Program-made: the position numbers and the translations under genes
Part shown: positions 22,957-38,272 of the stretch, in pieces
How positions within the stretch are numbered: position 1 is the first letter of the stretch
How the letters are laid out: every line of letters starts with the position of its first letter
The notes under the pieces: generated by a model
What the model was told of the DNA's origin: nothing
The model's input: only the letters and a program-made list of their open reading frames with translations
Databases searched by the model: none
NCBI RefSeq assembly: GCF_030052995.1
Contig: NZ_JASJPW010000001.1
Coordinates: 1,422,501 to 1,486,500, forward strand
DNA from: Gemmobacter sp. 24YEA27
GTDB lineage: Bacteria > Pseudomonadota > Alphaproteobacteria > Rhodobacterales > Rhodobacteraceae
Direction of reading: 5' to 3'
DNA: 64,000 bases

Positions 22957-22990
22957 AAAAAAAAGAGCCAGCCCGAAGGCTGACCCTTTT
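22957..22990 (-). terminator. Intrinsic terminator of the 65-aa protein gene
   Basis: On the minus strand GTCAGCC and GGCTGGC pair around a TTCG tetraloop (one G-T pair), followed by a tract of eight T. It begins about 30 bp past the stop of the small gene ending at 23021. Confidence 0.88.
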
Positions 22991-23020: not shown

Positions 23021-23218
23021 TCAGCTGTCGCTGCCGCAAGCAACGGCGCAGAGAACCGCAGCACCGATCAGCAGCGGGACGAGAACGCCACCGGTGCTCG
23101 AGGTGCGCTCGGTAACAACTACCGGTTCAACGTCGTCAACGACGACAACCGGGCCACCAGCGAAAGCAGCCGAGCCCACGAGGGACAGTGCGACTGCAGC
23201 AGTCATGACTTTCTTCAT
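23021..23218 (-). CDS. Small exported protein, paralog of the one at 35882-36058 (unknown function)
   Basis: A 65-residue protein starting at ATG 23218, seven bases after a strong GGAGG site. MKKVMTAAVALSLVGSAAFA is a textbook signal peptide with an AFA-GG cleavage site. The mature part is about 45 residues: a Val/Asp/Glu-rich stretch (GGPVVVVDDVEPVVV), then TSSTGGVLVPLLIGAAVLC, a hydrophobic C-terminal segment that could insert in a membrane, ending ACGSDS. The same layout, including TSSxGGxLVPLL, recurs in the 58-aa protein at 35882. It is a stand-alone gene with its own terminator. I do not recognise the family and give no function. Confidence 0.8.
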   Translation of the reverse strand: MKKVMTAAVALSLVGSAAFAGGPVVVVDDVEPVVVTERTSSTGGVLVPLLIGAAVLCAVACGSDS

Positions 23219-23629
23219 CGGAAACCTCCAGAACGACTCCACCTTCCGGATAGCATTTTTCTGCTCAGGACAAAAGCTAATCTCACGCGCTGAGCGGAAA
23301 CTGTGGCAGCGGTGCAATGAATTCGCCCTGCGGATGCAGAGATCCGCCAATCCTGTCGGACTTAACCCTGAAAATGATGCTTTTTAAGGCCGAAAGCGCG
23401 AAATTTGAGGGGGCGCTGGCAATCGTCGCGTGGCCAGGCCGGAGGGCGGTGGCGTTTGGTCAACAAAAGCGGCGGAATCACGCCTGGGATTGCGGGTGTT
23501 TCCGACTGCAGGAGGCCGGAAGATATACCGCAGTGCCCGAAAGCCTGTGACGCGCCGGATAAAAGAAAAGGTGCTGCGGGCGAGGCAGCGGAGATTCCCT
23601 GCCCCCTTCGCTTTCTTGCCCGCGCGCGG
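23219..23629. other. Intergenic region upstream of the 65-aa gene
   Basis: About 410 bp between yjbF (ends 23630) and the small gene. It should hold the small gene's promoter near its left end; the stretch 23250-23290 is relatively AT-rich. I see no gene, RNA or clear terminator in the rest. Confidence 0.5.
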
Positions 23630-24268
23630 TCAGTCGACCACGCGTTCGAATTCGATCTGACCGATACCCGGGCTGACCCATTCGCGCGATTTGCGGACCT
23701 TGCCGCCTTCCAGCCAGTAATGATTGGTGAGGCGCCCGCCTTCGCGTTCACAGGTCTCGCTGATCTTGCGGGTGCTGTGGCCGCGCCCGTAGATCGTCAC
23801 CGTCTCGGACCCGTCGGTGGTGGTGACGCAATTGTAATCGCGCCGTCCGGTCTGGTCATCGGCATCCATATAGAAATACGACCGCCGGTAAGCGCCGCCC
23901 GAGGCGATCTGGCCGGCCTGGGGGGCAGCAGAGGACATCAGATCAGCGCCAAGCCCCCGGGTCTCGATCAGGATATCCCCACGGAACGAGAACAGCATCC
24001 CGTCCGCCGAGAACCATTGTGTCACATCGCCACGACGGTCGCGGATGGTGAGGAACGTCTCGATCCCGCGCGAGGGGACGCGCAGTTTCATCACCGGCCC
24101 GCCCGATTTCTCGATCGCGGCGCGGCTGACATTGCCGATCGGTGCCAGCTGGCCACCGGCCTCGCCGCCCGTCAGGTCGCTGACCCCGGGGATGAGCTTT
24201 TCCAGCTTGCCGCAGCCCGCGAGCGTGGCGAGCAGCGCCAGCGCGCCGGTGGTGGTTTTCAGCGCCAT
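23630..24268 (-). CDS. yjbF: YjbF/GfcB-family lipoprotein
   Basis: A 212-residue predicted lipoprotein. The start at ATG 24268 has GGAG six bases upstream and gives the signal MALKTTTGALALLATLAGC with the lipobox LAGC. The rest (VPSRGIETFLTIRDRRGDV, WFSADGMLFSFRGD, CVTTTDGSETV) matches the YjbF/GfcB family, beta-rich lipoproteins of group 4 capsule and exopolysaccharide loci. Its start overlaps the stop of the YjbH-like gene by 10 bp, the same gene pair found in yjbEFGH and gfcABCD operons. It probably acts at the inner face of the outer membrane in polysaccharide export. Confidence 0.85.
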   Translation of the reverse strand: MALKTTTGALALLATLAGCGKLEKLIPGVSDLTGGEAGGQLAPIGNVSRAAIEKSGGPVMKLRVPSRGIETFLTIRDRRGDVTQWFSADGMLFSFRGDILIETRGLGADLMSSAAPQAGQIASGGAYRRSYFYMDADDQTGRRDYNCVTTTDGSETVTIYGRGHSTRKISETCEREGGRLTNHYWLEGGKVRKSREWVSPGIGQIEFERVVD

Positions 24269-26405
24269 ACGCGGCTCCATTGGTCATCGACCCGGTCAGA
24301 GTGATAATCGCGGATCGTGTCATAGAGCCTGCCCTCGACATCGACACGCGCGCCGCCGTCGCGTTGCAGCGGGCGGATGGTCTGGCTGATTTCCTGGCGG
24401 GACGGGTTGCTGAGCATCCAGTTCATCGGGATGGTGATGCGGATCCCCTTGTCGAACCGCCCCTCGCCAACCTCTGCCGCGCTGGCATCGGTCAGGGTGG
24501 CAAAAGCGCCCACTTTCCAGCCATTGGCGAATTCGCGGTCCAGCGTCAGCGTTGCGCCGACATCGCCCGCAAGATAGCGCCCGACATCTAGCTGGCCGAG
24601 ATAGCCATTGCCGAAATCGTAATAGGCCGAAAGGTAGCCGGTCGCGATGGCATAGTCATAGTCGCCAAAGCCCAGCATGCCGTCGGTGTCACGCTGCTTG
24701 GTGTAATTCACCTCGACCCCAAGGGCGAGCGGGCTGTCGGCGGGCTTCCAGAGCACCTCACCCGAGACGCCGCCATGCATCCGTTCCAGATAACCGACGG
24801 TGACGCGGCTGTAGAAATTCGGGGCAGGGTGGGCGTACCAGGCCAGCGTCGCGCGTTCGAACGCGAAATCGGAATCCTCGTTATATTTGCGCGTGTCCGA
24901 GCGAACATGGGGCAGGGTGCCGCCTTTGGGGACCAGATGGGCTTTCTCGGAATTGCCGGCGATCTTTTGATAGATGGTGCCCGAGGCCACCCAGCCAGGG
25001 GCGAAATCATAGCTGGCCGAGGCGCGGATACCGATATCGCCATGCGCCGGCGACGTCACGCGGAAGCCCGGCAGGATGCGCCAGCGGAGTTTCTGATACA
25101 TGTCCTCTTCGGCGCCTGCGCCACCGGGATCATCTCGCCTGCATCGGCCCAGGTGACACGGTCCCGCAGGGTCGCGGCATTGTTGGGCGTATGCTCCAGC
25201 CGTTCAAGATCCGAACGGCGGATGGTGACTTTCGACACGCCCATGCCTTTGACGACCGGCACGATCTCAAAGGTCTCGACCGAGGCCGGCATCACAGCGG
25301 CAAGGGCGCGGGCGGTGCGGCCTATCGCCTGGGCCGGGGCGTCAAGCTTGTCATTGCGGATGCGGATCTGCACGCGATCAGCGGTATAGGCGAAATCCTC
25401 GATCCGGATTCCGTCCTTTTCCAGATAGCGGTTCAGGTTCTTGCGCAACACACCATTGGCATCGGCCTGCGTCACCCAGCCGCCGTCATAAGCATCCGGG
25501 TTCGAGGCACGCGACGGGCGGGTGATCACCGGGATCGGCCCTGACCCCAGCACGCCGATGGTGCCGGGGCGGTTTTTCGGATCCATCACCAAATGGAAGG
25601 AAAGCCCGAATTCCGACCCGTAAAGCGAATAGGCGCCGATGCGGACATTGTCGCCCCAAGCGTATTCGACGCCGATATTATAGGGGTTCTTGCGCTCGAA
25701 CACTTTCCGGTCGCCGGATTCCAGATTGTAATTGTCGCTGGAATACTCGGCCTTCAGCGTCCATTTGTCGTTGATCTTATATTCAAGGCCGCCAAAGAGT
25801 GCGGCCGGGCCGCGAAACCAGTTATCGGCGTTCAGCTCAGAGCCGAGGCCGGTGGCGGAATCCCAGGTGTCGCGCACGCCGCCGAACGGATTGCCAAAGG
25901 ACTGGTAGCTGCCAAAACGCCCCCAGCCGATGCCGGCGGTCACCTTCAGCCTGTCGTTGAAGGTTTTGGTCGCGACAAGATATTCGGCAGAATTAAAGCC
26001 TGTCCCCAGAAAATCCTGCAACCCGAGGGTGACAGCGGGCATCCATGTGCCCTCTTCCGCGAGGCGGAAGCGCAGATCGAAGCTGCGGTCATTATAGGTC
26101 GAATAATCATTCGGGTCGGGCAGAACATCGTTCCACTTGCCGGTCGCCTGCAGCCGGAAACTTGCGGCCATCCAGGAGGTGATCTGGAAGCTGAGTGTTG
26201 CGCGAGACACCGCGCCAAATTTCGAAACAGAGAGATTGAAGGTGCCATCCGGCATAGCATCGCCCGAGGGCATATCAATAAGGCCGGGCACGCCGCTGAA
26301 GCTCAGCGTCGGTTTCATCTCTGCCTTCGACTCTCGCACAAAGGGAAACGTCATCACCGATGCACAAACCGTCGCAAGCAGCAGGCTACGTGTCTTGCTT
26401 GCCAA
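24259..26405 (-). pseudogene. yjbH: YjbH-family outer-membrane protein, one frameshift
   Basis: About 715 residues of a YjbH/GfcD-like beta-barrel protein split in two. TTG 26405, seven bases after GGAGGG, starts a signal peptide (LASKTRSLLLATVCASVMTF). FSGVPGLIDMPSGDAMPDGT is the family's N-terminal signature. The first frame ends in PKRTCIRNS after 25110. Adding one base at 25110-25116 restores EEDMYQKLRWRILPGF and the open frame to 24259, which contains the FERATLAWYAHPAP and barrel-like YLSAYYDFGNGYLGQ segments. YjbH forms a large outer-membrane pore for polysaccharide with YjbF/YjbG. Unlike the other breaks, this one is not in a long run. Confidence 0.75.
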
Positions 26406-26498
26406 AACTGACCCTCCGTTCGCCCCATCTATGCGAAAGCCTGCACCGAACGGCAAGCCCTGCTGTGCGCAGCTGCCCACAGATTGGCAGGAACCGCG

Positions 26499-28421
26499 TC
26501 ACTGCGACATCACTGCCGCGTTGAGATCCCGCCCGGCTTCGCCAGTGCCGCAGGCGACGCTGATCGCCAGTTCACGGGCTTCCGCGGCATCGCCTGTGGC
26601 GGCAATCCGGCCAAGCCTTTGCAGCAGAAGCGGAATTTCCAGCCGGGTCTCGTCTTCTTCACTCGCGCGCAGGATCTTGGGATGCGGCGTGCGCAACAGG
26701 CCGTCGCCGATCAGCAATTCCTCATGCAGTTTTTCGCCAGGACGCAGCCCGATGACGGTGATTTCAATATCGCCGGTCGGGTTGTTCTCATCGCGTAAGG
26801 TATAGCCCGCCGCTTCGATCAGCTGGGTCGCGAGGTCGCGGATCCGGACCGGCTTGCCCATGTCCAGCACGAAGACATTGGCGCGCCCGCGTGTCGAGGC
26901 ATCCTCGAACGAGCCCGCCAGCAGGACGAGCCGGGTCGCCTCGGAGATCGTCATGAAATAGCGGGTGACGTCTTCATGGGTCAGGGTGACCGGCCCGCCA
27001 TGCGCGATCTGGTCTTTGAAGAGCGGAATGACCGAGCCCGAGGACCCCAGCACGTTTCCGAACCGCACGATTGAGAAATGTGTGCCCGGGTGGCGATGCG
27101 CCATATCCTGGATCACCAGTTCCGCCAGCCGTTTGGAGGCGCCCATCACATTCGTGGGCCTGACCGCCTTATCTGTCGAAACCAGCAAAAAGCGCTGCAC
27201 CCCCGCCTCGACACAGGCATCGGCCAGCGCCCTGGTGCCCAGCACATTGTTTACCAGACCCGAAATCGGATTGGCCTCGACCAGCGGGACATGTTTATAG
27301 GCGGCGGCATGGAGCACCACCTCGACGCCGTTTTCATGGATGGTGCGGCGCAGGGTACGGGCATCCGTGACCGATCCCAGCACCGGTTCGATATGGATAT
27401 CCTGCGCGCCGGGCATCGCGGCGAGTTCGCGCTCGATGGTGTAAAGCGCCAGTTCGGACATCTCGAACAGAACCAGCCGCGCCGGTCCGCAGGACATAAG
27501 CTGGCGGCACAGCTCGGACCCGACAGACCCCCCGGCGCCCGAGACCAGGACCGAGCGGCCGTAATAGGCGTCCGATCCGTCCGGCAGGCCGACATCAAGC
27601 CGGTCGCGGTTCAGAAAATGCCCCGGCGAAACCGATTTCAGCGTATCGACGCGCATCTCGGCACCGGCGAGCTGCTCGAACGAGGGCAGCACCTGCACCT
27701 CCAGCCCAAGCGCCTGCATCTGCCGCACGATCCGCATCTGTTTTGGTGCCGACAGCGACGGGATCGCCAGGATCACCCGGTTGATCTCATGATTGCGGGC
27801 AATATCGGAAATCCACTCGGGCGAGAGGATGCGCAGCCCGGCAATGCGCTGGCTGGACAGGTTCGTGTCATCATCAAGGAAGGCGACAACGCGGATCGTC
27901 TCATGCGCTTTCAGGGCCGAAGCGAGACGCAGCCCCGTGGTGCCGGCACCATAGATCAGAACCCGTACCGGCACTTTGTTATAGCGCAGCGCCGAGAGGT
28001 AAAGCTGCAGCAATACCACCCGCGAGCCAATGGCGGACAGAAACAGGATCAGCGCAAAGGCCAGCGTCCCGACCACCGGGAAATAGAGCCCCGGCAGGCT
28101 GGTGACGAAAAAGGCGCCGGTCGCCACCACTGCCGCATAGGGGAAGATCCCGATGGTGCCGAAGGTCTCATAGCTTTTCAGCTTGACCCGCAGCAGCCCG
28201 AAGGCGACCGAGGCAAAGCCGCCAAACACCGCCAGCAGCGGAAAGACCAGCCCCAGCCGCGAGAGCTGCTCGCTGGGCCAGAGTGTATTATACGTGAAAA
28301 TGCAGGCCAGCAAAAAGCTGAATGGGGCCAGCGAGACATCGAGCAGCCAGATGGCCAGTTGCTTGTGCTGCCTGGTCAGAGATTGGGAGATCCAGAACAG
28401 CGTCTTGCGAAAAGATGTCAT
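26499..28421 (-). CDS. CapD/WbpM-type nucleoside-diphosphate-sugar 4,6-dehydratase, membrane-bound
   Basis: About 640 residues. Four or five membrane helices occupy the first 140 residues (WLLDVSLAPFSFLLACIFTY and following). A first Rossmann domain has VLIYGAGTTGLRL, and the catalytic extended SDR domain has VSGAGGSVGSELCRQL, SDKAVRPTNVMGASKR and RFGNVLGSSGSVIPLF. The MxxxK in place of YxxxK is normal for this long-chain CapD/WbpM/PglF group, which converts UDP-GlcNAc to a 4-keto-6-deoxy intermediate. I chose ATG 28421; a GTG at 28469 also opens the frame. It lies next to the initiating sugar transferase, as in many capsule loci. Confidence 0.88.
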   Translation of the reverse strand: MTSFRKTLFWISQSLTRQHKQLAIWLLDVSLAPFSFLLACIFTYNTLWPSEQLSRLGLVFPLLAVFGGFASVAFGLLRVKLKSYETFGTIGIFPYAAVVATGAFFVTSLPGLYFPVVGTLAFALILFLSAIGSRVVLLQLYLSALRYNKVPVRVLIYGAGTTGLRLASALKAHETIRVVAFLDDDTNLSSQRIAGLRILSPEWISDIARNHEINRVILAIPSLSAPKQMRIVRQMQALGLEVQVLPSFEQLAGAEMRVDTLKSVSPGHFLNRDRLDVGLPDGSDAYYGRSVLVSGAGGSVGSELCRQLMSCGPARLVLFEMSELALYTIERELAAMPGAQDIHIEPVLGSVTDARTLRRTIHENGVEVVLHAAAYKHVPLVEANPISGLVNNVLGTRALADACVEAGVQRFLLVSTDKAVRPTNVMGASKRLAELVIQDMAHRHPGTHFSIVRFGNVLGSSGSVIPLFKDQIAHGGPVTLTHEDVTRYFMTISEATRLVLLAGSFEDASTRGRANVFVLDMGKPVRIRDLATQLIEAAGYTLRDENNPTGDIEITVIGLRPGEKLHEELLIGDGLLRTPHPKILRASEEDETRLEIPLLLQRLGRIAATGDAAEARELAISVACGTGEAGRDLNAAVMSQ

Positions 28422-28520
28422 TGTCAGAAAGATCACCAAGTAACTGAACACAGAATGAGCATATGCCACCCACAGGGCAAGCGTAACATGCTGCGCAGCC
28501 TGTCGGCGGCATTTACCGGC

Positions 28521-29132
28521 CTATTTCCGCCGTAAAACCTGCCCGATCGTGCGGCCGAGTATGACAATATCGTAACAAAGGCTGCGCTTCGTGCGGTAGA
28601 TCAGGTCGAGATGCGCCTTTCTGGGCACACAGCGCCGGCGGTAAACCTCGTCGGTCTCAGATGCGTCACGGCATTGCGCAAGCAGCCATGCCTCGTGGCG
28701 ATGGAAGTGCAGCGTGGCGAGGCCGGTGAGACCGGGGCGGCATTGCAGCACCTCGCGGTAAAGATCGGGGAAGGCCTCGGTATATTGCCGCAAGGGCGGG
28801 CGCGGGCCGACAATGCTCATATCACCTTTGAGGATGTTCCAGATCTGCGGGATCTCATCAAGCCGGTAGCGGCGCAGGATGCGGCCCTCGCGGGTGATGC
28901 GCGCGCTTTTATCGCCGCCCGAAACGCCGGTATCGGCACGGTCCACCGTCATGGTGCGAAATTTCCACAGCCGGAACGGCTGGTCGGGTGTCTTCATCCG
29001 CTCGGCACGGTAGAAGACCGGCCGGCCGGAACGGATCAGGATCCAGATCGCGATGATCAGCGCCGGCACAGCCAGCAGAAAGGCTGCCATCAGCGCGAGA
29101 ACAAGGTCAAAGAGGCGTTTGCCGGGGGTCAT
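28521..29132 (-). CDS. Polyprenyl-phosphate sugar-1-phosphate transferase (ExoY/WcaJ/PglC family)
   Basis: A 203-residue initiating glycosyltransferase of the small PglC-like type. KRLFDLVLALMAAFLLAVP is the single membrane-associated helix. FYRAERM, FRLWKFRTM, RRYRLDEIPQIWNIL and GDMSIVGPRPPL are the catalytic core motifs; the Asp-Glu pair in RLDEIPQ and the DMSxVGPRP loop are the active site. It moves a sugar-1-phosphate from a UDP-sugar to undecaprenyl phosphate and so starts the repeat unit. The 203 aa length lacks the long N-terminal membrane domain of WcaJ. It follows the epimerase with a 3-bp gap. Confidence 0.92.
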   Translation of the reverse strand: MTPGKRLFDLVLALMAAFLLAVPALIIAIWILIRSGRPVFYRAERMKTPDQPFRLWKFRTMTVDRADTGVSGGDKSARITREGRILRRYRLDEIPQIWNILKGDMSIVGPRPPLRQYTEAFPDLYREVLQCRPGLTGLATLHFHRHEAWLLAQCRDASETDEVYRRRCVPRKAHLDLIYRTKRSLCYDIVILGRTIGQVLRRK

Positions 29133-29135
29133 GGT

Positions 29136-29996
29136 TTATGGCTCCGGCAGGGCGCGCAGCGCCTGGATTTCCGCGATGATCTGTGCGGGCGTGGCAGAAG
29201 GCAGCGGCAGCAGCGCGGCAAGCGCGGCATTGTCCTGGGTTGCGACCGGCACCACCTTTGGATTGGGTGCGGCCCAGCCCCATGCGAGGTCTGACGCACG
29301 CAGGAGATCGGCCATGCCCAAAGGTGGCGCCTGCACGATATTCAGCACGGGCGGCAGGGCTTCGCCCGCCGCAATCCGCCCCAGCAGCGCGGCCAGTGCC
29401 TGGGCGAAGGTGAGGGGGCCGATCCAGGACCGCAATGGCCCGCCCGGCGCATCTGCAACCGGGTCGAGGCGAATGTCCTGCCCGGGCGCGCGCGGGGCCA
29501 AAAGTGCATCGGCCCCGGCCAGATTGCCAAGCCGCAGGATGGTCAGCGGCAGGCCCGATGCCACAAGCAGACGCTCGGCCTCCAGCTTGGCCGCACCATA
29601 GGGGCCCGGCGGCGCAGGCGGGTCGCTTTCGCGGGCCGGCACCGGCCCCGGCGCATAGACGGCCGCAGTTGAGAGACAGACCAGATGGCGGACATGATTT
29701 TGGCGACAGGCCTCCAGCACCGGCGGGATCAGACCCGGATTGGAACCCGGATCCCTCGCGCCGGTCGTGCCGGCCAGATGCAAAAGGATCGCATCCCGCC
29801 GCCAGGCCGGTGCAGGGCCGGCGCCGATATCCCAGCGGATGCCGGGCGTCTCCTGCCGCGAAGACCACAGAAACCGCAGCGCCGGCGGTGGCGCGGCCGT
29901 CCAGACCCGTTTCAGGATCGAGCCAACCCGGCCTGCCGCGCCGGTTACAATAACAGTGGTCTCTGACAGAGTTGCCCCCAGGTTTTTGCGCCGCAT
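29136..29996 (-). CDS. NAD-dependent epimerase/dehydratase
   Basis: A 286-residue extended SDR. VIVTGAAGRVGSILKRV is the NAD-binding GxxGxxG loop, LVCLSTAAVY holds the catalytic Ser/Thr, and YGAAKLEAERLL the YxxxK. I start at ATG 29996; the frame is open further upstream but that part lacks family features and would run over the palindrome that probably controls wza. Enzymes of this type make or reduce 4-keto sugars; the exact sugar cannot be told. It is the first gene of the epimerase-sugar transferase-CapD transcript, divergent from wza. Confidence 0.82.
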   Translation of the reverse strand: MRRKNLGATLSETTVIVTGAAGRVGSILKRVWTAAPPPALRFLWSSRQETPGIRWDIGAGPAPAWRRDAILLHLAGTTGARDPGSNPGLIPPVLEACRQNHVRHLVCLSTAAVYAPGPVPARESDPPAPPGPYGAAKLEAERLLVASGLPLTILRLGNLAGADALLAPRAPGQDIRLDPVADAPGGPLRSWIGPLTFAQALAALLGRIAAGEALPPVLNIVQAPPLGMADLLRASDLAWGWAAPNPKVVPVATQDNAALAALLPLPSATPAQIIAEIQALRALPEP

Positions 29997-30072
29997 TCCC
30001 GCCAAATCGTCCCGGCCAATGTCACAGGCAATTGACCGCAGCCGACCAGAGCTTATGGTCCCGGGGGTCGAA

Positions 30073-30100
30073 CTGTCCATATATGGGGATATGCGGACAG
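30073..30100. promoter_or_regulatory. Palindrome between divergent wza and epimerase genes (candidate operator)
   Basis: CTGTCC (30073-30078) and GGACAG (30095-30100) are perfect inverted arms around ATATATGGGGATATGC, itself containing two ATAT blocks. It is the most AT-rich part of the 145-bp gap between two exopolysaccharide transcripts and ends 40 bp before the wza start, where a shared operator or promoter would be expected. The binding protein is unknown. Confidence 0.45.
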
Positions 30101-30140
30101 GCACGACACCGGAATTCCAGGGCTGCCGCCGGAGATTTGT

Positions 30141-31282
30141 ATGCGTTCCTCGTCTGTCGTCAGGCTGCTTGTCGCAGCCACTGTCTCTGTGTCACTTGCC
30201 GGCTGCACCGCGCCGAGAGGGGCGGGGAAGGCGAGCGAGATCCTGCGCGGCGCTGATGCCGAAGACGCCGATTTCCAGGTGGTGCATGTGTCGCGCGATA
30301 CGGTGGGGAGGGTTTCGGGCTGGCCCGGCCTGGGCGGGGGCGCCGCCACCTCGGGCTGGCTGACGAAAAAGCGTGGGCCTTCGGGCAATACTATCCAGGC
30401 CGGCGACAAGGTCGATCTGACGATCTGGGAGACCGGGATGTGACGCTCCTGTCGCAGCCGGGACAGAAACTCGTGGCGCTGCCGGGGCTTACCGTCTCGC
30501 CCGATGGGTCGATCTACCTGCCCTTCGCCGACAAGGTCTATATTGGCAATATGACCCCCGACCAGGCGCGCGAGGCGGTACAGAAAAAAATCGAAACGAT
30601 CATGCCCTCGTCGCAGGTGCTGGTCGCGCATCAGCCGGGGCATAAATCGACCGTCGATCTGGTCTCAGGCGTCAATGCGCCTGGCAGCTATCCGATGCCC
30701 TCGCGGGACTTTACCGTACTGGGCCTGCTTGCCATGGGAGGCGGCATCCCGGCCGCGATGAAGAACCCCTATGTGCGGCTGATGCGCGACGGCAAGCTCT
30801 ACGGCATCTCTGCCGACCGGCTGCTGAAAGACCCGGCGCAGGACACCACGCTGCGTGGCGGCGACAAGGTCTATGTCGAATCGGATGAACGCTATTTCAT
30901 CGCGCTGGGCGCTTCGGGCGCCGAATCGCAGGTGCCCTTCCCGCAAGAACGGGTGACCGCACTGGAGGCTCTGTCGCTGACCGGCGGGCTGAACGATGCG
31001 CGTGCGGATGCCAAATCGGTGCTGGTCCTGCGCAACTATCCGGCGACTGCGCTGCGTGCGGCGAGCAGCGCGGCAGGCGTGGGCCCGGACAAGCAACGCG
31101 TGATCTTTGCCATCGACCTGACCTCGGCAGACGGGCTGTTCTCGGCCGGACAGTTCTACATCCAGAACAAGGATGTGGTTGTGGTGGCAGAAAGCCCGAT
31201 CGGCTCGGCGGCTTCCATCATCGGCCTTGCGGCGGGTGTGATGGGCATCGGACGCGCGGCCCAGGCGATTTCGAACAACTGA
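30141..31282 (+). pseudogene. wza: Wza-type polysaccharide export lipoprotein, one frameshift
   Basis: A signal peptide with lipobox SLAGC (residues 18-22) is followed by a polysaccharide-export domain (NTIQAGDKVDLTIWETG) and SLBB-like domains (VSPDGSIYLPFADKVYIG, SGVNAPGSYPMPSRDFTVL). The first frame stops at TGA 30440-30442. Adding one G to the GGG at 30435-30437 restores IWETGDVTLLSQPGQKL and an open frame to 31282, about 380 residues. Wza proteins form the octameric outer-membrane channel for capsule or exopolysaccharide. A hydrophobic C-terminus (SIIGLAAGVMGIGRAAQAI) replaces the amphipathic helix of E. coli Wza. Likely intact in the organism. Confidence 0.8.
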
Positions 31283-31301
31283 TTGCGGGGCTGAGGCGGC
31301 G

Positions 31302-31320
31302 GGAGGGCCTTCAGCCCTCC
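31302..31320. terminator. Hairpin between convergent wza and marR
   Basis: GGAGGGC and GCCCTCC pair around CTTCA, 20 bp past the wza stop and overlapping the marR stop codon. The following TGTTCC is only weakly T-rich, so it is a poor intrinsic terminator. Confidence 0.45.
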
Positions 31321-31757
31321 TGTTCCAGCCTTGCCCGCATCTCACGCAGGACCGGCAGGACGGCGCGCACCCGGTCCTGGCCAAGCGCCTCGACCACTTC
31401 GGCAATCATCGGCGTCACTGCCTGGACGGCGGCATCGCGGGCGGCGCGTCCGGCGGGGCTGATCGCCACGAATTTCCGGCGTGCGTCATCCCAGTCGGGG
31501 CGGATATGGATATGCCCGGCCCATTCCAGCCGCGACAGTGTGTTGGTCATCGCGCCCCGCGTGACATGGAACGCGCGCGCAAGCTGCGCGGGGCTGCGTT
31601 CATCCTGCACCCGCGCGAGGTGGTTCAGCACCGAGAACTGCGACAGTTCCATGCCCTTTGGCAGTGCTTTCGAAATGCGGTTGCGCGCAAGCTGATCGGT
31701 CATGAACAATTCGCCAAACAGCGCGACGGCAATGTCTTCGGTGCGGTCCTGGCTCAT
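31311..31757 (-). CDS. MarR-family transcriptional regulator
   Basis: A 148-residue winged-helix regulator. SQFSVLNHLARVQDERSPAQ and AFHVTRGAMTNTLSRLEWAG are the recognition helix region, and IHIRPDWDDARRKFVAISPAG is the wing with the conserved D-x-R. MarR proteins repress, as dimers, genes for stress, efflux or aromatic metabolism and respond to small ligands. The start overlaps the stop of the nitrilase-like gene by 4 bp, so it is the last gene of a comF-grxC-nitrilase-marR transcript. The target is unknown. Confidence 0.85.
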   Translation of the reverse strand: MSQDRTEDIAVALFGELFMTDQLARNRISKALPKGMELSQFSVLNHLARVQDERSPAQLARAFHVTRGAMTNTLSRLEWAGHIHIRPDWDDARRKFVAISPAGRAARDAAVQAVTPMIAEVVEALGQDRVRAVLPVLREMRARLEQEG

Positions 31758-32596
31758 AGGGGCGTATCCGGCCCGCTGAAATCGCGGTCATGGCTCAGCG
31801 CCGGAACCCGGCCCCGCGCCCGCGCGATCTGGGAAAGGTCGAGATCGGCCAGGGTGACGCCCGGCTCGGTCCCGCCATCGGCGATCACCTCGCCCCAGGG
31901 CGCGATGGCAAGCGAATGGCCCCAGGTGCGCCGCCCGCGGCCATGCGCCTCGCGGTGAAAACCGGTCTGGGCAGGGGCGAGGACGAAACAGCCATTTTCA
32001 ATGGCGCGGGCGCGCAGCAGGGTCTCCCAATGCGCGCGTCCGGTGGTGTCGTTGAAGGCCGCCGGCACGGTCAGGATCTCTGCGCCGCCTTTCGCGAGGT
32101 GGCGGAAAAGATGCGGGAAGCGGAGGTCGTAGCAGACCGCCATGCCGACCTTACCAAAGGGTGTTTCCGCCACCACCGCGCGGTCGCCGGGCCGATAGCC
32201 TGCGCTCTCGCGGTAGATCTCGGTTTCCGAGACATTGACGTCGAACATATGAATTTTGTCGTACCGCGCGAGGATGCCGCCATCCGGCCCGATCAGAAAG
32301 GAGCGATTCGCGAATCGTCCATCTGCATCGCGGGTCAACAGCCCCAGCGAACCGATCAGCAGATGCTTCCCCGCCGCCGCTGCTGCCTCGCGCAGGGCGC
32401 TGAGCGTGGGGTCGTCGTCCTCATGGTGATAAACACTGCGTTGGTGATCGCGCGATGAGGACAGGCAATTGGTCATCTCGGGCGTCAGGATGAAATCCGC
32501 ACCCGAGGCCACCGCGGTGCGAAACATACCCTGGACCGAGGCGAGATTCTCGGCCGGGTCGTCTGTCACATTCAGCTGGATCAGAGCCGCGCGCAT
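31754..32596 (-). CDS. Carbon-nitrogen hydrolase (Nit/omega-amidase-like)
   Basis: A 280-residue nitrilase-superfamily enzyme with the full catalytic triad: Glu in LTPEMTN near residue 42, Lys in RYDKIHMFDVN near 108, and Cys in GMAVCYDLRFPHLFR near 150. It is closest in pattern to the Nit1/Nit2 branch, which repairs deaminated glutathione or hydrolyses alpha-keto-amides; the glutaredoxin gene directly upstream supports a glutathione link, as inference. Its start shares one base with the grxC stop and its stop overlaps marR by 4 bp. Confidence 0.88.
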   Translation of the reverse strand: MRAALIQLNVTDDPAENLASVQGMFRTAVASGADFILTPEMTNCLSSSRDHQRSVYHHEDDDPTLSALREAAAAAGKHLLIGSLGLLTRDADGRFANRSFLIGPDGGILARYDKIHMFDVNVSETEIYRESAGYRPGDRAVVAETPFGKVGMAVCYDLRFPHLFRHLAKGGAEILTVPAAFNDTTGRAHWETLLRARAIENGCFVLAPAQTGFHREAHGRGRRTWGHSLAIAPWGEVIADGGTEPGVTLADLDLSQIARARGRVPALSHDRDFSGPDTPL

Positions 32597-32853
32597 CAGC
32601 CGGCCAGCAAGGCGTCAAGCCTGCCCTCATGCTCCAGCGCATGCAGATCGTCCGAGCCACCGACATGGGTCTGGCCGATGAAAATCTGCGGCACCGTCCG
32701 CCGCCCGCCGGCACGGTTGGTCATGGCGATCCGCAGATCCGGGTCGCGGCTGACGTCAATCTCGGCGAAGGCCACGCCCTTTTTCGTCAGAAGCCGCTTT
32801 GCCGCGAGGCAATAGGGGCAGGTGGGGGTGGTGTAGATCTCGACTTTACGCAT
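32596..32853 (-). CDS. grxC: Glutaredoxin 3
   Basis: An 85-residue class I glutaredoxin. The dithiol site CPYC lies at residues 13-16, with the cis-proline in TVPQIFIG and the glutathione-binding GGSDDL. It reduces disulfides and glutathionylated proteins in the cytoplasm using glutathione. Length is normal. It lies between comF and the nitrilase-like gene on one strand. Confidence 0.93.
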   Translation of the reverse strand: MRKVEIYTTPTCPYCLAAKRLLTKKGVAFAEIDVSRDPDLRIAMTNRAGGRRTVPQIFIGQTHVGGSDDLHALEHEGRLDALLAG

Positions 32854-32888
32854 GGCTCGTCCCTTATTCCGGATGGAACTATAGGGAT

Positions 32889-33672
32889 TTAACCATTGCG
32901 TGCAACGCGTGCGAGGGCGAGAACGGATACCGGCCCTGCGCCTGCTGCATGACAGGCGGCGGTCGCTGCGGAAAATGTCGCCCCCGAGGTCATCACATCA
33001 TCGACCAGCAGCACCGGGCGGCCCCGGATCCGGGCGGCCTGGCGCGGCGAAATGCGAAATGCCCCGTCAAGCGCGGCAAAGCGCGCCTCGCGCGAGCGGC
33101 CCTCCTGGCTGCCTGTGGCGCGCGGGCGGGTCAACAGATCGGGAAAGTGATCAAGCCCGGTCAGCCGGGCCAGTTCATGCGACAACAGGGCAGCCTGGTT
33201 GTATTGCCGCCGAAAGAGCCGCCAGCGGTGCAACGGGCACGGGGGCGATCACCATGCCTTCGGCCAGCAGGGGCCGTGCCGCGCGCGCAAGCCACTCGCC
33301 CATGGGGCGCGCCAGATCCAGCCGGTCGCCATGTTTCAGCGCCAGCACAAGGCTGCGCCCGGTCGCCCTGTAGAGCATCGCCGCGCGCCCGGCCGCCCAG
33401 GGGCGGGGGGCGGCATGGCATTCCTCGCAAAGGTGATCCCCGCCGCCAGCTGCCCCGGAGGCATCCGGATCTGCGGGCACCTCCAGGCCGCAGGTGCTGC
33501 AGCAGGCGCCGGTGATAAACGGCGTGTCACGCCAGCAGCCGCCGCAAAGCCCGAAATCCGACGAGACCAGCCCGCCGCAGGCAATGCATTGCGGCGGAAA
33601 TACCGCGCGGATCAGCCCGAGCCCCAGTGTCTTCGCAAGCAAAGAAGGCCGACCGGACGGCGCCCCAATCAC
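32889..33672 (-). pseudogene. comF: ComF-family phosphoribosyltransferase-like protein, one frameshift
   Basis: The N-terminal zinc-binding part has paired cysteines (CIACGG, CGGC, CCSTCG, CEEC). The second half carries VLLVDDVMTSGATF, the PRPP-binding loop of phosphoribosyltransferases. The first frame ends in AAIQPGCPVVA. Removing one G from the GGG at 33235-33237 restores APVPLHRWRLFRRQYNQA, the ComF hallmark, and an open frame to 32889 (about 260 residues). This is the only break explained by an extra base. ComF is needed for natural DNA uptake in competent bacteria, but its role in non-competent ones is unclear. Confidence 0.78.
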
Positions 33673-33719
33673 CTTATCTTCGCTTGCATCTTTGCCTGCG
33701 CCCCCTATTTTCCGCCATC

Positions 33720-34541
33720 ATGTCCGCACCTGTCCTGACCGATCGCCACGCCCTTTCGCTGCACCGCCGTCGCGCGGTTGCCTCGCCTGATCCGGCCTTT
33801 TTCCTGCTTGAAGAGGCTGCCGATGAGATCAAGGAAAGGCTGCTTTCGGTTAACAGGAGGTTTACGGCGCCGGTTCTGATCAGCGGTTTTCCGGATTTCT
33901 GGGCCGGGGCGCTGCCGGATCTGCCGCAATCCCCGGATCTGCCGCTGCTTGACCTGGCCCCTGGCAGCCAGGATGCCGTAATCCACGCGATGAGCCTGCA
34001 TTGGGCGGATGACCCGGTCGGGCAGATGGTGCAGGGGTTTCGCGCCCTGAAACCCGACGGGTTGTTCCTCGCCCTTTTGTTCGGCGGACAAACGCTGCAC
34101 GAGCTGCGCGCCTGTCTCGCCGAGGCCGAGGCCGAAATCAGCGGCGGTCTCTCGCCCCGGATCCTGCCGATGGCCGAGATCCGCGATCTGGGCGCGCTGT
34201 TGCAACGAGCCGGATTCGCACTGCCGGTGGCAGACAGTTTCACCCGCAAAGTGGCCTATCGCGACATTTTTCATCTGATGTCGGATCTGCGCGCCATGGG
34301 CGAGACCAATGCGCTGGCAGCCCGGTTGCGCCGCCCGACATCGCGCGCGCTGTTTCTAAGGGCTGGCGAGATCTATCGGCAAAATTTCCCGGCAGCCGGC
34401 GACCGGATCGAGGCTACATTCGAGGTGATCTGCCTGACCGGATGGACCCCGCATGAAAGCCAGCAAAAGCCGCTGCGCCCCGGATCAGCACGCGCGCGGC
34501 TGGCGGATGCGCTTCGTGCGACGGAACACCGCTTGCCGTGA
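33720..34541 (+). CDS. SAM-dependent methyltransferase, BioC/NDUFAF5-like
   Basis: A 273-residue protein starting at ATG 33720, divergent from comF. LLDLAPGSQDAVIHAMSLHW and LHWADDPVGQMVQGFRALKP match alphaproteobacterial homologs of the NDUFAF5/BioC group. The glycine-rich SAM motif is weak, the region LISGFPDFWAGA being unusual, as is common in this subgroup. Mitochondrial NDUFAF5 modifies an arginine of complex I; the bacterial role is unproven. GWTPHESQQKPLRPGSARAR is the conserved C-terminal tail. It ends 72 bp before hemH. Confidence 0.8.
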   Translation: MSAPVLTDRHALSLHRRRAVASPDPAFFLLEEAADEIKERLLSVNRRFTAPVLISGFPDFWAGALPDLPQSPDLPLLDLAPGSQDAVIHAMSLHWADDPVGQMVQGFRALKPDGLFLALLFGGQTLHELRACLAEAEAEISGGLSPRILPMAEIRDLGALLQRAGFALPVADSFTRKVAYRDIFHLMSDLRAMGETNALAARLRRPTSRALFLRAGEIYRQNFPAAGDRIEATFEVICLTGWTPHESQQKPLRPGSARARLADALRATEHRLP

Positions 34542-34552
34542 TGCGGCCTGGC

Positions 34553-34573
34553 GCTTGACCCCACAGGTCAAGC
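34553..34573. repeat. Inverted repeat upstream of hemH
   Basis: GCTTGACC and GGTCAAGC are perfect 8-bp arms around CCACA, between the methyltransferase stop and the hemH start, 41 bp before the ATG. There is no T tract. It could be a weak terminator, mRNA-stabilising hairpin or an operator. Confidence 0.55.
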
Positions 34574-34613
34574 CTGTATCCCGGACCCGCAACCAGCAGA
34601 GGGAGCGACAGGC

Positions 34614-35666
34614 ATGACTGACGCGAGAATCAGCGCGGCGAACGGGCTCCCCGAAGGGCATCCGGTGACGGGCAGCAAGAAGATCGGCGTGCTGATCGCC
34701 AATCTCGGCACGCCTGACGGCTATGATTACTGGTCGATGCGCCGCTATCTGAACGAATTCCTGTCAGACAAGCGGGTGATCGATATCCCGGACTGGAAAT
34801 GGCAGCCGCTGTTGCAGGCGGTGATCCTGTCGAAACGCCCCTTCACCTCAGGCGCGAATTACAAGCTGATCTGGAACGAAGACCTGAACGAATCGCCTCT
34901 GATGACGATCACCAAGGCGCAGACGGCTGCGCTTGCGGCGTCGCTGAAGGCGCAGTTCGGCGACCGGGTCGAGGTCGATTTCTGCATGCGTTACGGCAAG
35001 CCCTCGACAGAGGAAAAGCTGAAAGCGCTGATCGCAAAAGGGTGCACGAAGATCGCCTTCCTGCCGCTTTACCCGCAATATGCGGGGGCAACGGTGGCGA
35101 CGGCGAATGACCAGCTCTTCCGCGCGCTGATGCAGGAAAAGCGCCAGCCCTCGGTCCGGATCGTTCCGGAATATTACGACAACCCGGCCTATATCACGGC
35201 ACTGGCGGGGTCGGTCACCCGCGCCTATGCGGCGCTGGATCACCGTCCCGATCTGCTGGTCGCAAGCTATCACGGCATGCCGAAACGCTATGTCGAAGAG
35301 GGTGACCCCTATTTCTGCCAATGCCGCAAGACCTCGCGCCTGTTGCGCGAGGCGCTCGGCTGGGACGAGGCAGAGCTGCATACGTCTTTCCAGTCGGTCT
35401 TTGGCACCGAGGAATGGCTGCGCCCCTATACGGTCGAATATGTGGCCGAGCTGGCGAAACAGGGAAGGAAGCGGATCGCAGTGATCGCACCGGCCTTTTC
35501 GGCCGATTGCATCGAGACGCTGGAAGAGATCCAGGGCGAGATTCAGGAGGCCTTCCTGCATGCCGGGGGCGAGCGCTTCACCTATATTCCCTGCCTCAAT
35601 GACGACCCGGCCCATATCGAGGCCCTGACCGGCATCATCGCGGCTAATCTGGCTGGCTGGGTCTGA
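34614..35666 (+). CDS. hemH: Ferrochelatase
   Basis: A 350-residue ferrochelatase. GVLIANLGTPDGYDYWSMRR is the N-terminal signature, SYHGMPKRYVEEGDPY contains the catalytic histidine, and FSADCIETLEEI the conserved glutamate that helps metallate the porphyrin. CQCRKTSRLL is the region that carries iron-sulfur ligands in some relatives. It inserts ferrous iron into protoporphyrin IX, the last step of protoheme synthesis, at the membrane. GAGGGAGCGACAGGC precedes the ATG. It ends at a bidirectional terminator shared with the convergent 58-aa gene. Confidence 0.95.
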   Translation: MTDARISAANGLPEGHPVTGSKKIGVLIANLGTPDGYDYWSMRRYLNEFLSDKRVIDIPDWKWQPLLQAVILSKRPFTSGANYKLIWNEDLNESPLMTITKAQTAALAASLKAQFGDRVEVDFCMRYGKPSTEEKLKALIAKGCTKIAFLPLYPQYAGATVATANDQLFRALMQEKRQPSVRIVPEYYDNPAYITALAGSVTRAYAALDHRPDLLVASYHGMPKRYVEEGDPYFCQCRKTSRLLREALGWDEAELHTSFQSVFGTEEWLRPYTVEYVAELAKQGRKRIAVIAPAFSADCIETLEEIQGEIQEAFLHAGGERFTYIPCLNDDPAHIEALTGIIAANLAGWV

Positions 35667-35830
35667 GCAGGCGTCAGACGGTTCCCTGGCGGCTCTGCGG
35701 GATGATTCTCTTGGTTAATCCCGCGGGCCTAATCGCCCCGGAGGTGCTCAGCCTTGTGTCCGATCGAGGCATCTGCCGCCCGGATCTGACACAGGCATAA
35801 GGCATACGCATCAAGGCATAGACACAAATG

Positions 35831-35862
35831 AAAAGGGACGGCAGAAGCTCTGCCGTCCCTTT
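35831..35862. terminator. Bidirectional terminator between hemH and the 58-aa gene
   Basis: GGGACGGCAGA (35835-35845) and TCTGCCGTCCC (35849-35859) form a perfect 11-bp stem with an AGC loop, T3 on the plus side and T4 on the minus side. It separates two convergent transcripts. Confidence 0.88.
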
Positions 35863-35881
35863 CCATGAATTGCTTCAGTGA

Positions 35882-36058
35882 TCAGCTTGCGGCAGCTGCT
35901 GCGATCACAACGAGCACCAGCAGCGGAACAAGGATGCCGCCCGAGGACGACGTCGTTTGCTTCACGACTTCCGGCTCCATATGGGGTTCAACAACACCAC
36001 CTGCGAAAGCCGACGAAGCGGCAACCGAGAGAGCAGCGGCAAGCGCGATTTTTTTCAT
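35882..36058 (-). CDS. Small exported protein, paralog of the one at 23021-23218 (unknown function)
   Basis: A 58-residue protein from ATG 36058, with GGAGA upstream. MKKIALAAALSVAASSAFA is a signal peptide with the same AFA-GG junction as its paralog. The mature peptide, about 39 residues, has GGVVEPHMEPEVV, then TTSSSGGILVPLLVLVV and an Ala-rich hydrophobic end. The shared features are the cleavage site, the acidic EPxVV segment, the TSSxGGxLVPLL core and the hydrophobic tail. Both genes stand alone with their own terminators. I do not recognise a described family. The extra upstream codons in the open frame are ignored because the signal peptide and ribosome site fix the start. Confidence 0.8.
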   Translation of the reverse strand: MKKIALAAALSVAASSAFAGGVVEPHMEPEVVKQTTSSSGGILVPLLVLVVIAAAAAS

Positions 36059-36202
36059 CTTAGAATCTCCAGTTACAGCATGCCGTGGTATTGCAGAGGT
36101 CACGACATGCACCCAAGTGTCCTCGTAACCGTTTGTTAATCAGGAGCCCCTGGAAAATGCAATTCGCTGTAAGCGGGTGCTGTATGTAGGGCTAAAGTGT
36201 CG

Positions 36203-36805
36203 TCAAATTAGCAACACTTGTGTGCCAATTTGCGCCATATCGTAAAGTTCCTGCACGTGTTCATTATACATGCCGATGCAGCCATTGGACGATTTCCGCC
36301 CGATCTTGCGCGTGTCATGCGTGCCGTGGATCCGGTAATAGGTCCAGCTCAGATACATTGCGCGGGTTCCAAGCGGATTGTCCGCAGCACCGCCTTCGAC
36401 CACATCCGGCCATTCCGGATTGCGCTCTTTCATCGAGGGCGTCGGACGCCAGGACGGATTGACGACCTTTTGCACCACTTCGGTCCGGCCGAGACGGGTC
36501 AGATCATCCGAGAGCGGCACCGAAGTCGGGTAAAGCCGGTAGACCGACTGGTCCTCCGACCAGAAGTGAAGCGCCCGCGAGGTGATATCGACGAGAATCG
36601 CCCCTTTGCGGGTGTTGTCGAAATAGCCCCGCCAGTCCAGCATCCGGAAGCTGGAGGCATTGTTGCGCGGAGTATCCTGGGCCATTGCCGGCGTCAGCCC
36701 GGTGCCGAAAGTGGCGGCTCCGAAGGCAGAGGCGCCCAGAGCGGCGGCCCCCAACGCGGCGGCATTGCCAAGCACCCTGCGGCGATTCAGGTGGTCAGCG
36801 GACAT
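36203..36805 (-). CDS. L,D-transpeptidase (YkuD domain) with Tat-type signal
   Basis: A 200-residue protein. NRRRVLG near residue 7, followed by an Ala/Gly-rich hydrophobic stretch and AMAQD, is a twin-arginine signal with a signal-peptidase site. The YkuD catalytic region reads YRIHGTHDTRKIGRKSSNGC near 155-180, holding the HGT motif and the catalytic Cys in SNGCIGM. These periplasmic enzymes form 3-3 cross-links in peptidoglycan or attach outer-membrane proteins to it. It is divergent from the CAP-domain gene across 263 bp. Confidence 0.9.
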   Translation of the reverse strand: MSADHLNRRRVLGNAAALGAAALGASAFGAATFGTGLTPAMAQDTPRNNASSFRMLDWRGYFDNTRKGAILVDITSRALHFWSEDQSVYRLYPTSVPLSDDLTRLGRTEVVQKVVNPSWRPTPSMKERNPEWPDVVEGGAADNPLGTRAMYLSWTYYRIHGTHDTRKIGRKSSNGCIGMYNEHVQELYDMAQIGTQVLLI

Positions 36806-37674: not shown

Positions 37675-38175
37675 TCAGGGCAGAATGTGGATCGGCGTGC
37701 CCAGGTTGACCATAGAATAGACCTCTTCGATCTGATCATCGGTCACGGCGATACAGCCTTCGGTCCAGTCCCGCACCGAGACTTTGTTGCGCGGCCCGCC
37801 ATGGATGAAGATCTCACCGCCAGGCTTTTTATTCTGCAAAAGCGCGAATTCCTTGTCGATGACATTGGGGTAATTCACGTAAAGCGACAGGTGATAGCGC
37901 GAATTCGGGTTCTTGAAGGTCATGTAATAGGTGCCTTCGGGCGTCTTGCCGTCCCCTTCGAACTGCTTGTGGCCGACCGGTGCGAAACCTAGGCCCACAT
38001 CATATTTCTTCAGCACTTTTTCATTGTGCAGAAGATACATGATTCGGTCGGTCTTCTTGATGACGACCGAAGTGACCTCCGGGCCCTTATAGGTCCGGAA
38101 TTTGGTATCCTTCTTGCCACAGGCTGCCAGCGTCACCGCAAGCGCCAGGATAATAAGAAGTCTGAATGCCCGCAT
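37675..38175 (-). CDS. YafK-type L,D-transpeptidase-family lipoprotein
   Basis: A 166-residue protein from ATG 38175. MRAFRLLIILALAVTLAAC is a signal with lipobox LAAC at the cysteine. The YkuD-like region has FIHGGPRNK and WTEGCIAVTDDQIEEVY with the catalytic His and Cys. The YafK/DpaA branch, to which the short form and the G-C-I-A-V motif point, cleaves rather than makes the link between Lpp-like proteins and peptidoglycan in E. coli; a hydrolase role here is an inference. It is the second L,D-transpeptidase fold within 2 kb. Confidence 0.88.
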   Translation of the reverse strand: MRAFRLLIILALAVTLAACGKKDTKFRTYKGPEVTSVVIKKTDRIMYLLHNEKVLKKYDVGLGFAPVGHKQFEGDGKTPEGTYYMTFKNPNSRYHLSLYVNYPNVIDKEFALLQNKKPGGEIFIHGGPRNKVSVRDWTEGCIAVTDDQIEEVYSMVNLGTPIHILP

Positions 38176-38272
38176 GGAGTGTTTCCGCTCGCCTGTTTTT
38201 TTACCGGATAGCGGAATCACCTTACTGAGGCCAGCATTCCCGTCGCCATCCGGTCTCACGGATGCGTTATTT

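Follow-up and report, generated by a model that had tools for sequence, protein, structure and literature searches.

The 64,000-nt stretch of DNA from Gemmobacter sp. 24YEA27 analyzed here (NZ_JASJPW010000001.1; hereafter, the window) harbors two very small genes, one coding for 58 amino acids (aa; type A) and one for 65 aa (type B), which are almost certainly real, paralogous, and conserved genes of the exported type. They represent a family that is apparently undescribed and is common in Rhodobacteraceae. The analysis was carried out from sequence by computation and yielded the family and its architecture, the usual locus of A, the yjbF/yjbH setting of B, and a Gly-Gly/EP-type N-terminus common to about half of the sampled small barrels of the outer membrane. 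The family, its placement, and a leader RNA in front of A are well supported; a tether to peptidoglycan is what we propose in addition. As a whole, the explanation tentatively favored, at somewhat less than an even chance, is that both are membrane-anchored peptides, A being tethered to peptidoglycan by its N-terminus and B being an accessory of exopolysaccharide export.

Translation placed both open reading frames (ORFs) where an earlier note on this DNA had located them, B at 23024-23218 and A at 35885-36058 without the stop codon (23021..23218 and 35882..36058 with it). Both are on the minus strand; the plus strand at the same coordinates reads otherwise, and a plus-strand reading was rejected as the wrong strand. 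The 65-aa B protein, MKKVMTAAVALSLVGSAAFAGGPVVVVDDVEPVVVTERTSSTGGVLVPLLIGAAVLCAVACGSDS, consists of a signal ending in AFA↓GG (the arrow marks the cleavage site, predicted in both peptides by eye and pattern), the stretch PVVVVDDVEPVVV, TSSTGG, and a hydrophobic segment ending LCAVACGSDS. The 58-aa A protein, MKKIALAAALSVAASSAFAGGVVEPHMEPEVVKQTTSSSGGILVPLLVLVVIAAAAAS, likewise carries an AFA↓GG signal, followed by an acidic EP..EP spacer, TTSSSGG, and a hydrophobic C-terminal helix, which a structure model predicted for residues 40-57 with a mean pLDDT (predicted local distance difference test) of 74. The layout of both was supported by homologs and fits the "small membrane-protein partners" that the note had offered as one possible role. 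As also claimed there, each gene is preceded by a GGAG-type ribosome-binding site (RBS) and directly followed by its own terminator-like hairpin, at 22961..22990 behind B (minus strand, 13 pairs) and at 35828..35866 behind A (minus strand, 18 pairs); of the 13 such sites in the region (10.0 expected), these two have the longest hairpins. Proteins sorted by a PEP-CTERM/VPLPA-CTERM signal carry a VPLPA-type motif, a helix, and then a basic cluster. A VPLPA-CTERM sorting signal was considered and rejected, VPLL being present instead and no basic residue following the helix in A or B.

The paralogy of the two exported peptides, the central claim of the earlier note, was borne out by profile and hhalign comparisons, which found their mature parts homologous. 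A hidden Markov model (HMM) of mature A peptides scored 27.0 bits on the window B protein, the best shuffle reaching 10.6 (2,369 of 2,400 shuffles scored), and the profile of the mature part of B scored up to 33.0 bits on A, the best of 2,399 scored shuffles reaching 15.0. Comparison of the A and B alignments by hhalign, signal included, gave a probability of 98.6%. With the A HMM, three of 12 B-type relatives fell below the best shuffle (10.6), and a fourth scored only 10.7. The ratio of nonsynonymous to synonymous substitution (dN/dS) was estimated from 82 A peptides (1,500 sampled pairs, 1,183 usable). Its pairwise median was 0.25 over the whole peptide, with 0.12 for the signal and 0.33 for the mature part, both parts thus being under purifying selection. 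The note had taken the mature segment to be the conserved part, which fails within A because the dN/dS of the signal is lower than that of the mature peptide. Homologs and purifying selection, the absence of which it had named as speaking against the family, were both found.

A named family was not found for A or B, Pfam and NCBIfam giving only sub-threshold matches and PHROGs none, and the earlier statement that no described family was recognized is right for these three collections. A protein search returned 326 relatives for A and 23 for B at E up to 10. The A profile matched 126 of 149 Rhodobacteraceae genomes (E up to 0.01; weak or B-like matches included), and Cereibacter (Rhodobacter) sphaeroides carries a family A gene (P0073). 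A mixed profile matched eight of 289 genomes drawn from the class: four were the own genome or of the same family, one was a Peptidase_S74-fused relative from another family (L158), and three matched in the signal region or little more. A third short paralog was not found in this genome, which has one A and one B; the third match of the family profile is to the N-terminus of a barrel of the outer membrane. In another genome of the same family (G410), several divergent peptides of the same layout were observed (L159/L163 and L165), two of them in tandem, with a INSTYVIVGILAALLIAAAVNEAD-type end. Overall, the earlier note was partly confirmed in its observation and partly supported in its interpretation, and it was silent on the strand, the L,D-transpeptidase beside A, the leader RNA, the S74 fusions, and the N-terminal motif shared with outer-membrane proteins (OMPs).

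Upstream of A and co-oriented with it lies an L,D-transpeptidase gene (YkuD; 36203..36805, minus strand; PF03734, E 4.9e-23) with a twin-arginine-like signal recognized by eye, and hemH, coding for ferrochelatase (34614..35666, plus strand; PF00762, E 2.1e-105), is convergent with A. This arrangement is the usual one. Among 79 named A loci (from the best 80 of at least 119 confirmed, one being an S74 fusion, L044), 56 had both the co-oriented transpeptidase upstream and the convergent hemH, 13 the transpeptidase only, five hemH only, and five neither. Between the stop codon of the transpeptidase and the start of A, the median distance was 146, with quartiles of 145 and 149 and a range of 133-300 (113 loci, some of which repeat a genome). 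The N-terminus and spacing counts and the intergenic alignment drew on 169 family members, 28 of which duplicate another member's peptide and upstream sequence. A second YkuD gene is present at 37675-38340 (minus strand), about 0.9 kb from the first, and a match to it recurs upstream of A in many named loci. The UniRef name "Ferrochelatase" attached to several of the peptides (P0030, P0037, P0054, P0073, P0111, P0131, and others) was rejected for those of the window because hemH is a separate 350-aa gene there; the label is perhaps inherited by mistake from the hemH neighbor.

The alignment of 81 intergenic regions (22 rows shown) revealed a conserved, putatively promoter-like block (TTGCAT ... 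TGATTAACA) at 36134..36162 on the minus strand; a promoter scan of the region called no promoter at this block. Ahead of A, a CtrA-type box was present but rare, in 5 of 118 compared with 0.75 in shuffles. Downstream of the block, at 36056..36126 (minus strand), is a conserved 5' leader, which is very probably a real RNA element. It runs from ACGAGG..CTTGGG through a covarying hairpin with a CCTC loop to the RBS and the start codon and scored 58.1 bits (E 7.6e-11) with the covariance model R1, of which the window copy is itself one row. The opening ACGAGG was found at the expected place in 66 of the 81 regions, mostly followed by TACAGTCTTGGG, and the 3' part consists of a hairpin of varying sequence and then CTGGAGG before ATG. 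In 45 leader rows, RNAalifold gave ten pairs, nine of them changed on both sides. These rows were picked by hand from 65, the dropped ones mostly having a different-looking hairpin, which favors structure; with that selection, 82.6% of the cells were paired, compared with 65.2% after shuffling and 32-52% when the partners were slid by 1-3 columns, and 93 cells were double-changed, compared with 33.2. None of 500 shuffles matched the paired fraction or the double-changed count. The covariance model found the leader in 55 of 100 Rhodobacteraceae genomes, with one match each, and all 55 matches ended at the start codon of A; rows of the model came from at least 15 of these genomes.

Some results weigh against the hairpin. 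Counted as pairs showing a double change, the alignment did not differ from its shuffles (9 vs. 8.4), and a plain alignment of all 65 rows retained only the five outer pairs, with a weak consensus energy of -3.2 kcal/mol, each of these five showing double changes. Single sequences folded modestly better than their shuffles (z from -1.07 to -2.92 in eight). As read by eye, six of these eight folds paired a portion of the conserved CTTGGG with the RBS, and a cis-acting leader of this kind may tune the translation of A by masking the RBS. In 35 of 45 rows, the CCTC falls within the hairpin loop or at its edge, whereas shuffling would place it there in 5.1. It could base-pair with the leader's invariant 5' GAGG; as those letters do not vary, this contact is one that we infer. 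A short upstream ORF in the leader, looked for by eye only, was rejected, its frame not being kept in the rows viewed. No Rfam match was found over the window leader at E up to 1. RNA motifs named in Rhodobacterales are located at metK (PMC2864571) and between cco operons and at cysS (PMC8632094), as given in the accessible parts of the two surveys, whose main text, supplements aside, holds no mention of hemH, ferrochelatase, or transpeptidase.

The usual transpeptidase neighbor at a near-constant spacing, the single helix of A, and a dedicated leader suggestive of dosage control would also suit a small inner-membrane regulator or scaffold of L,D-transpeptidases or of another envelope complex, without covalent attachment. 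This we consider unlikely; it leaves unexplained an N-terminus that the family has in common with beta-barrels. Among 136 distinct family peptides, AxA↓GG was present in 103 and AxA↓G[GNS] in 119. To sample barrels, 31 OMP_b-brl loci of Rhodobacteraceae among the matches listed were taken, and a signal-bearing ORF could be read in 26. Fourteen of these 26 had G[GNSD] with a Pro/acidic stretch behind it, nine had AxA↓GG, and one motif-bearing barrel is present in this genome (AFA↓GGPAVVVDEP). None of 90 other exported ORFs from 800 kb of this genome had either feature (14/26 vs. 0/90, Fisher 2.4e-11). The rule behind these counts, by which any AxA site is accepted, was adopted after a first pass and was applied to OMPs and background alike. 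In a background of 240 proteins, AxA↓GG occurred in 11 and the full motif in five, namely, the OMP itself, three S74-fused family members, and one transpeptidase. In Coxiella, Gly-Gly N-termini of OMPs are joined to meso-diaminopimelic acid (meso-DAP) by Ldt2, and N-terminal attachment of OMPs is also known in Brucella, according to the available part of a review (PMC12729407).

N-terminal attachment is the mechanism favored for A owing to this likeness of its Gly-Gly end to barrels, the Coxiella precedent, and the adjoining transpeptidase gene. Both peptides would be exported and would expose, after the predicted cleavage, a free acidic, proline-containing N-terminus starting with Gly-Gly, with one hydrophobic helix at the C-terminal end. 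The neighboring L,D-transpeptidase, or another one, would then join the alpha-amino group of the N-terminal Gly of A to meso-DAP of peptidoglycan. The helix would stay in a membrane, most likely the inner membrane, since such a helix should stop transfer. The result would be a miniature membrane-to-wall tether in bacteria that do not have Braun's lipoprotein. A covalent tether of this kind is possible, and we hold it with some reserve. Several observations speak against it. Twelve of the 26 OMPs do not have the motif (two of the 26, L282 and L300, look like wrong frames), and the first pass, which used only the first AxA site, gave GG in just two of 26. At ten of the 79 named A loci no transpeptidase was found, and the synteny of transpeptidase and A need not imply joint function. 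We infer both the attachment and the location of A, whose cleavage site is a pattern call. Moreover, E. coli YjbE and GfcA do not have Gly-Gly after the signal, and AxA↓G[GNS] was found in only 19 of 49 peptides encoded beside yjbF; hence, the motif does not appear to be needed for the role discussed below for B. Finally, with the helix as a stop-transfer segment in the inner membrane, the S74 domain of the fused relatives would lie in the cytoplasm, an odd place for a chaperone of secreted fibers.

B is found in a different setting. Upstream of it on the same strand are a yjbF/gfcB homolog (23630..24280, minus strand; PF11102, E 3.7e-25) and a yjbH/gfcD homolog (24259..26480, minus strand) with PF06082 in both of its two overlapping frames, and tamA/tamB lie on its other side. 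The splitting of the yjbH homolog over two overlapping ORFs in different frames may be a disruption or a sequencing error. Within 1.2 kb of yjbF, a strict search for short exported ORFs that have one more hydrophobic stretch succeeded in 42 of 90 relatives' loci and in none of 128 background windows of equal size. Under looser rules, 49 of the 90 loci had one, compared with 23 of 240 tiles cut from this genome (p = 7e-17), and no such ORF was seen at the other 41. The 90 loci, which do not include that of the window, were among about 110 matches listed. The peptides found range from clear family members to YjbE/GfcA-like ones with Ser/Thr/Asp tails, and 36 of the 49 from the looser search carry a polar tail. 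In five of the peptides beside yjbF (L200, L202, L203, L228, and L246), the hydrophobic segment is preceded by an additional soluble stretch, in most cases containing two cysteines. The earlier suggestion of a polysaccharide-associated role fits the 65-aa gene, about half of the relatives' yjbF loci being alike.

PF11106 (YjbE) gave no match over its cut-off for A or B, in 20 genomes, or for six YjbE-like neighbors of yjbF; E. coli YjbE itself scored 113.6 bits. By position, next to yjbF and yjbH, B qualifies as a YjbE and A does not. The link of B to YjbE is therefore one of position and architecture and not of family, and on these terms it is likely that B fills the yjbE role at the yjbF/yjbH locus, serving this exopolysaccharide exporter as YjbE/GfcA serves its counterpart in E. 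coli. Larson et al. suggested a possible modification of GfcA by O-antigens and its targeting to GfcD for export, as far as the accessible text goes (PMC8592465). Such a suggestion, together with the homology of A and B, the gradation from B-like to YjbE-like peptides beside yjbF, and their polar tails, would allow both peptides to be YjbE/GfcA-like accessories of polysaccharide export. A would then be a copy moved to the transpeptidase/hemH locus, its Ser/Thr residues near the helix might carry glycan, and the helix would only be a membrane anchor. It appears rather unlikely that this holds for both. The A profile is found in more genomes than yjbF (126 of 149, with B-type or weak matches among them, vs. 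92 of 149), three genomes of 98-100% completeness (G010, G024, and G027) have strong A matches and no yjbF match, and PF11106 is not matched over its cut-off.

Some relatives of A have the same N-terminal part followed by a C-terminal Peptidase_S74 domain (28.0 and 22.3 bits, cut-off 22). The domain call in these relatives is based on Pfam and sequence. The window peptides did not match S74, and the domain was absent from this genome at E up to 0.001. It exceeded the cut-off in ten of 149 genomes, five of which have an A-type fusion (G012, G068, G080, G121, and G145), and a Thr-tailed S74 fusion is located about 0.4 kb from yjbF in G004. A profile of the fusion matched 456 proteins at E up to 1e-5 among 7,998 candidates scored, and all 12 inspected held both parts. 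Ser and Lys are five residues apart in all eight aligned fusions, the Lys having already been in the filter that picked six of them. A Ser..Lys dyad has been described for phage endosialidases and MYRF in the part of PMC3742443 available. Self-cleavage at the Ser would yield a product of 70-79 residues, counting the signal, with the layout of the short form. In a Foldseek search of an S74-fused relative against PDB, nothing was found at E up to 0.001. Its only PDB sequence matches at E up to 1 were weak, to a neck appendage protein (3gud, 0.036) and to myelin regulatory factor (7dc3, 0.039). Small S74 proteins with a signal, one helix, and another N-terminal part were also observed (L171 in G082 and L179 in G098), hinting that S74 occurs on more than one type of anchor.

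Taken into the favored explanation, the fusions would mean that the peptide works as a trimer and that self-cleavage leaves a product like the short form; for the trimer itself this is doubtful. A larger role is given to them if the peptides form trimers or larger assemblies at the surface or in the periplasm, with S74 chaperoning fused copies and short copies co-assembling. The conserved Ser..Lys pair of the aligned fusions, the fused copy that adjoins a tandem array of short copies in G012, and the tandem arrays of five to six copies in G121 and L003 would be in keeping with this, but fusion-bearing genomes are few, there is no beta fiber region, and the N-terminal half of the structure model is of low confidence. 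Assembly of this kind seems quite improbable.

A literature search of titles and abstract beginnings, which fell short of most subscription papers, returned nothing on these peptides or the leader. According to the accessible portion of PMC10470522, most Alphaproteobacteria, R. sphaeroides among them, have no Lpp homologs, and the OMPs bound covalently to the peptidoglycan of R. sphaeroides are currently unknown. The present family provides one testable candidate for this gap. For GfcA, which is called entirely uncharacterised in the text available of PMC11494523, the family offers a link by position and architecture, and A has in addition a leader RNA of its own that contains a covarying hairpin. 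In its fullest form, the favored explanation would give Rhodobacteraceae a peptide-sized, probably trimeric tether bonded through Gly-Gly by the adjoining transpeptidase, its dose set by the leader and its assembly chaperoned by S74 in some lineages, while a paralog serves the yjbFH exporter and explains YjbE/GfcA; that all of this holds together is unlikely.

Among known systems, Peptidase_S74 proteins (phage tailspikes and MYRF, with a self-cleaving trimer chaperone) resemble those A relatives that carry the domain with its Ser..Lys pair. The genes of the window are without the domain, however, and the part upstream of it in the relatives is a helix peptide, not a beta fiber. YjbE and GfcA are closer to B. 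In E. coli, yjbE and gfcA adjoin yjbF and gfcB, as B adjoins a yjbF homolog, and all are small, with a signal peptide, a Ser/Thr-rich part, one short Ala/Val/Gly hydrophobic stretch, and a polar tail; the window B differs in its CxxxC end and GGPVVV start, A is at another locus, and PF11106 is unmatched. Braun's lipoprotein (Lpp), which forms a trimer according to the part of PMC12274547 at hand, is likewise a very small exported protein, and A would, like it, link membrane and wall. A and B have neither a lipobox nor a C-terminal Lys, there being no Cys at the predicted cleavage site and the proteins ending in AAAAAS (A) and CGSDS (B), and the proposed attachment end is the N-terminus. The remaining comparison is with beta-barrels of the outer membrane tethered to peptidoglycan through Gly-Gly or Asp-Ala N-termini (PMC12729407, accessible part). 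Although A has a single hydrophobic helix in place of a barrel, the family shares with them Gly-Gly after AxA and an acidic/Pro spacer, and a transpeptidase gene adjoins A.

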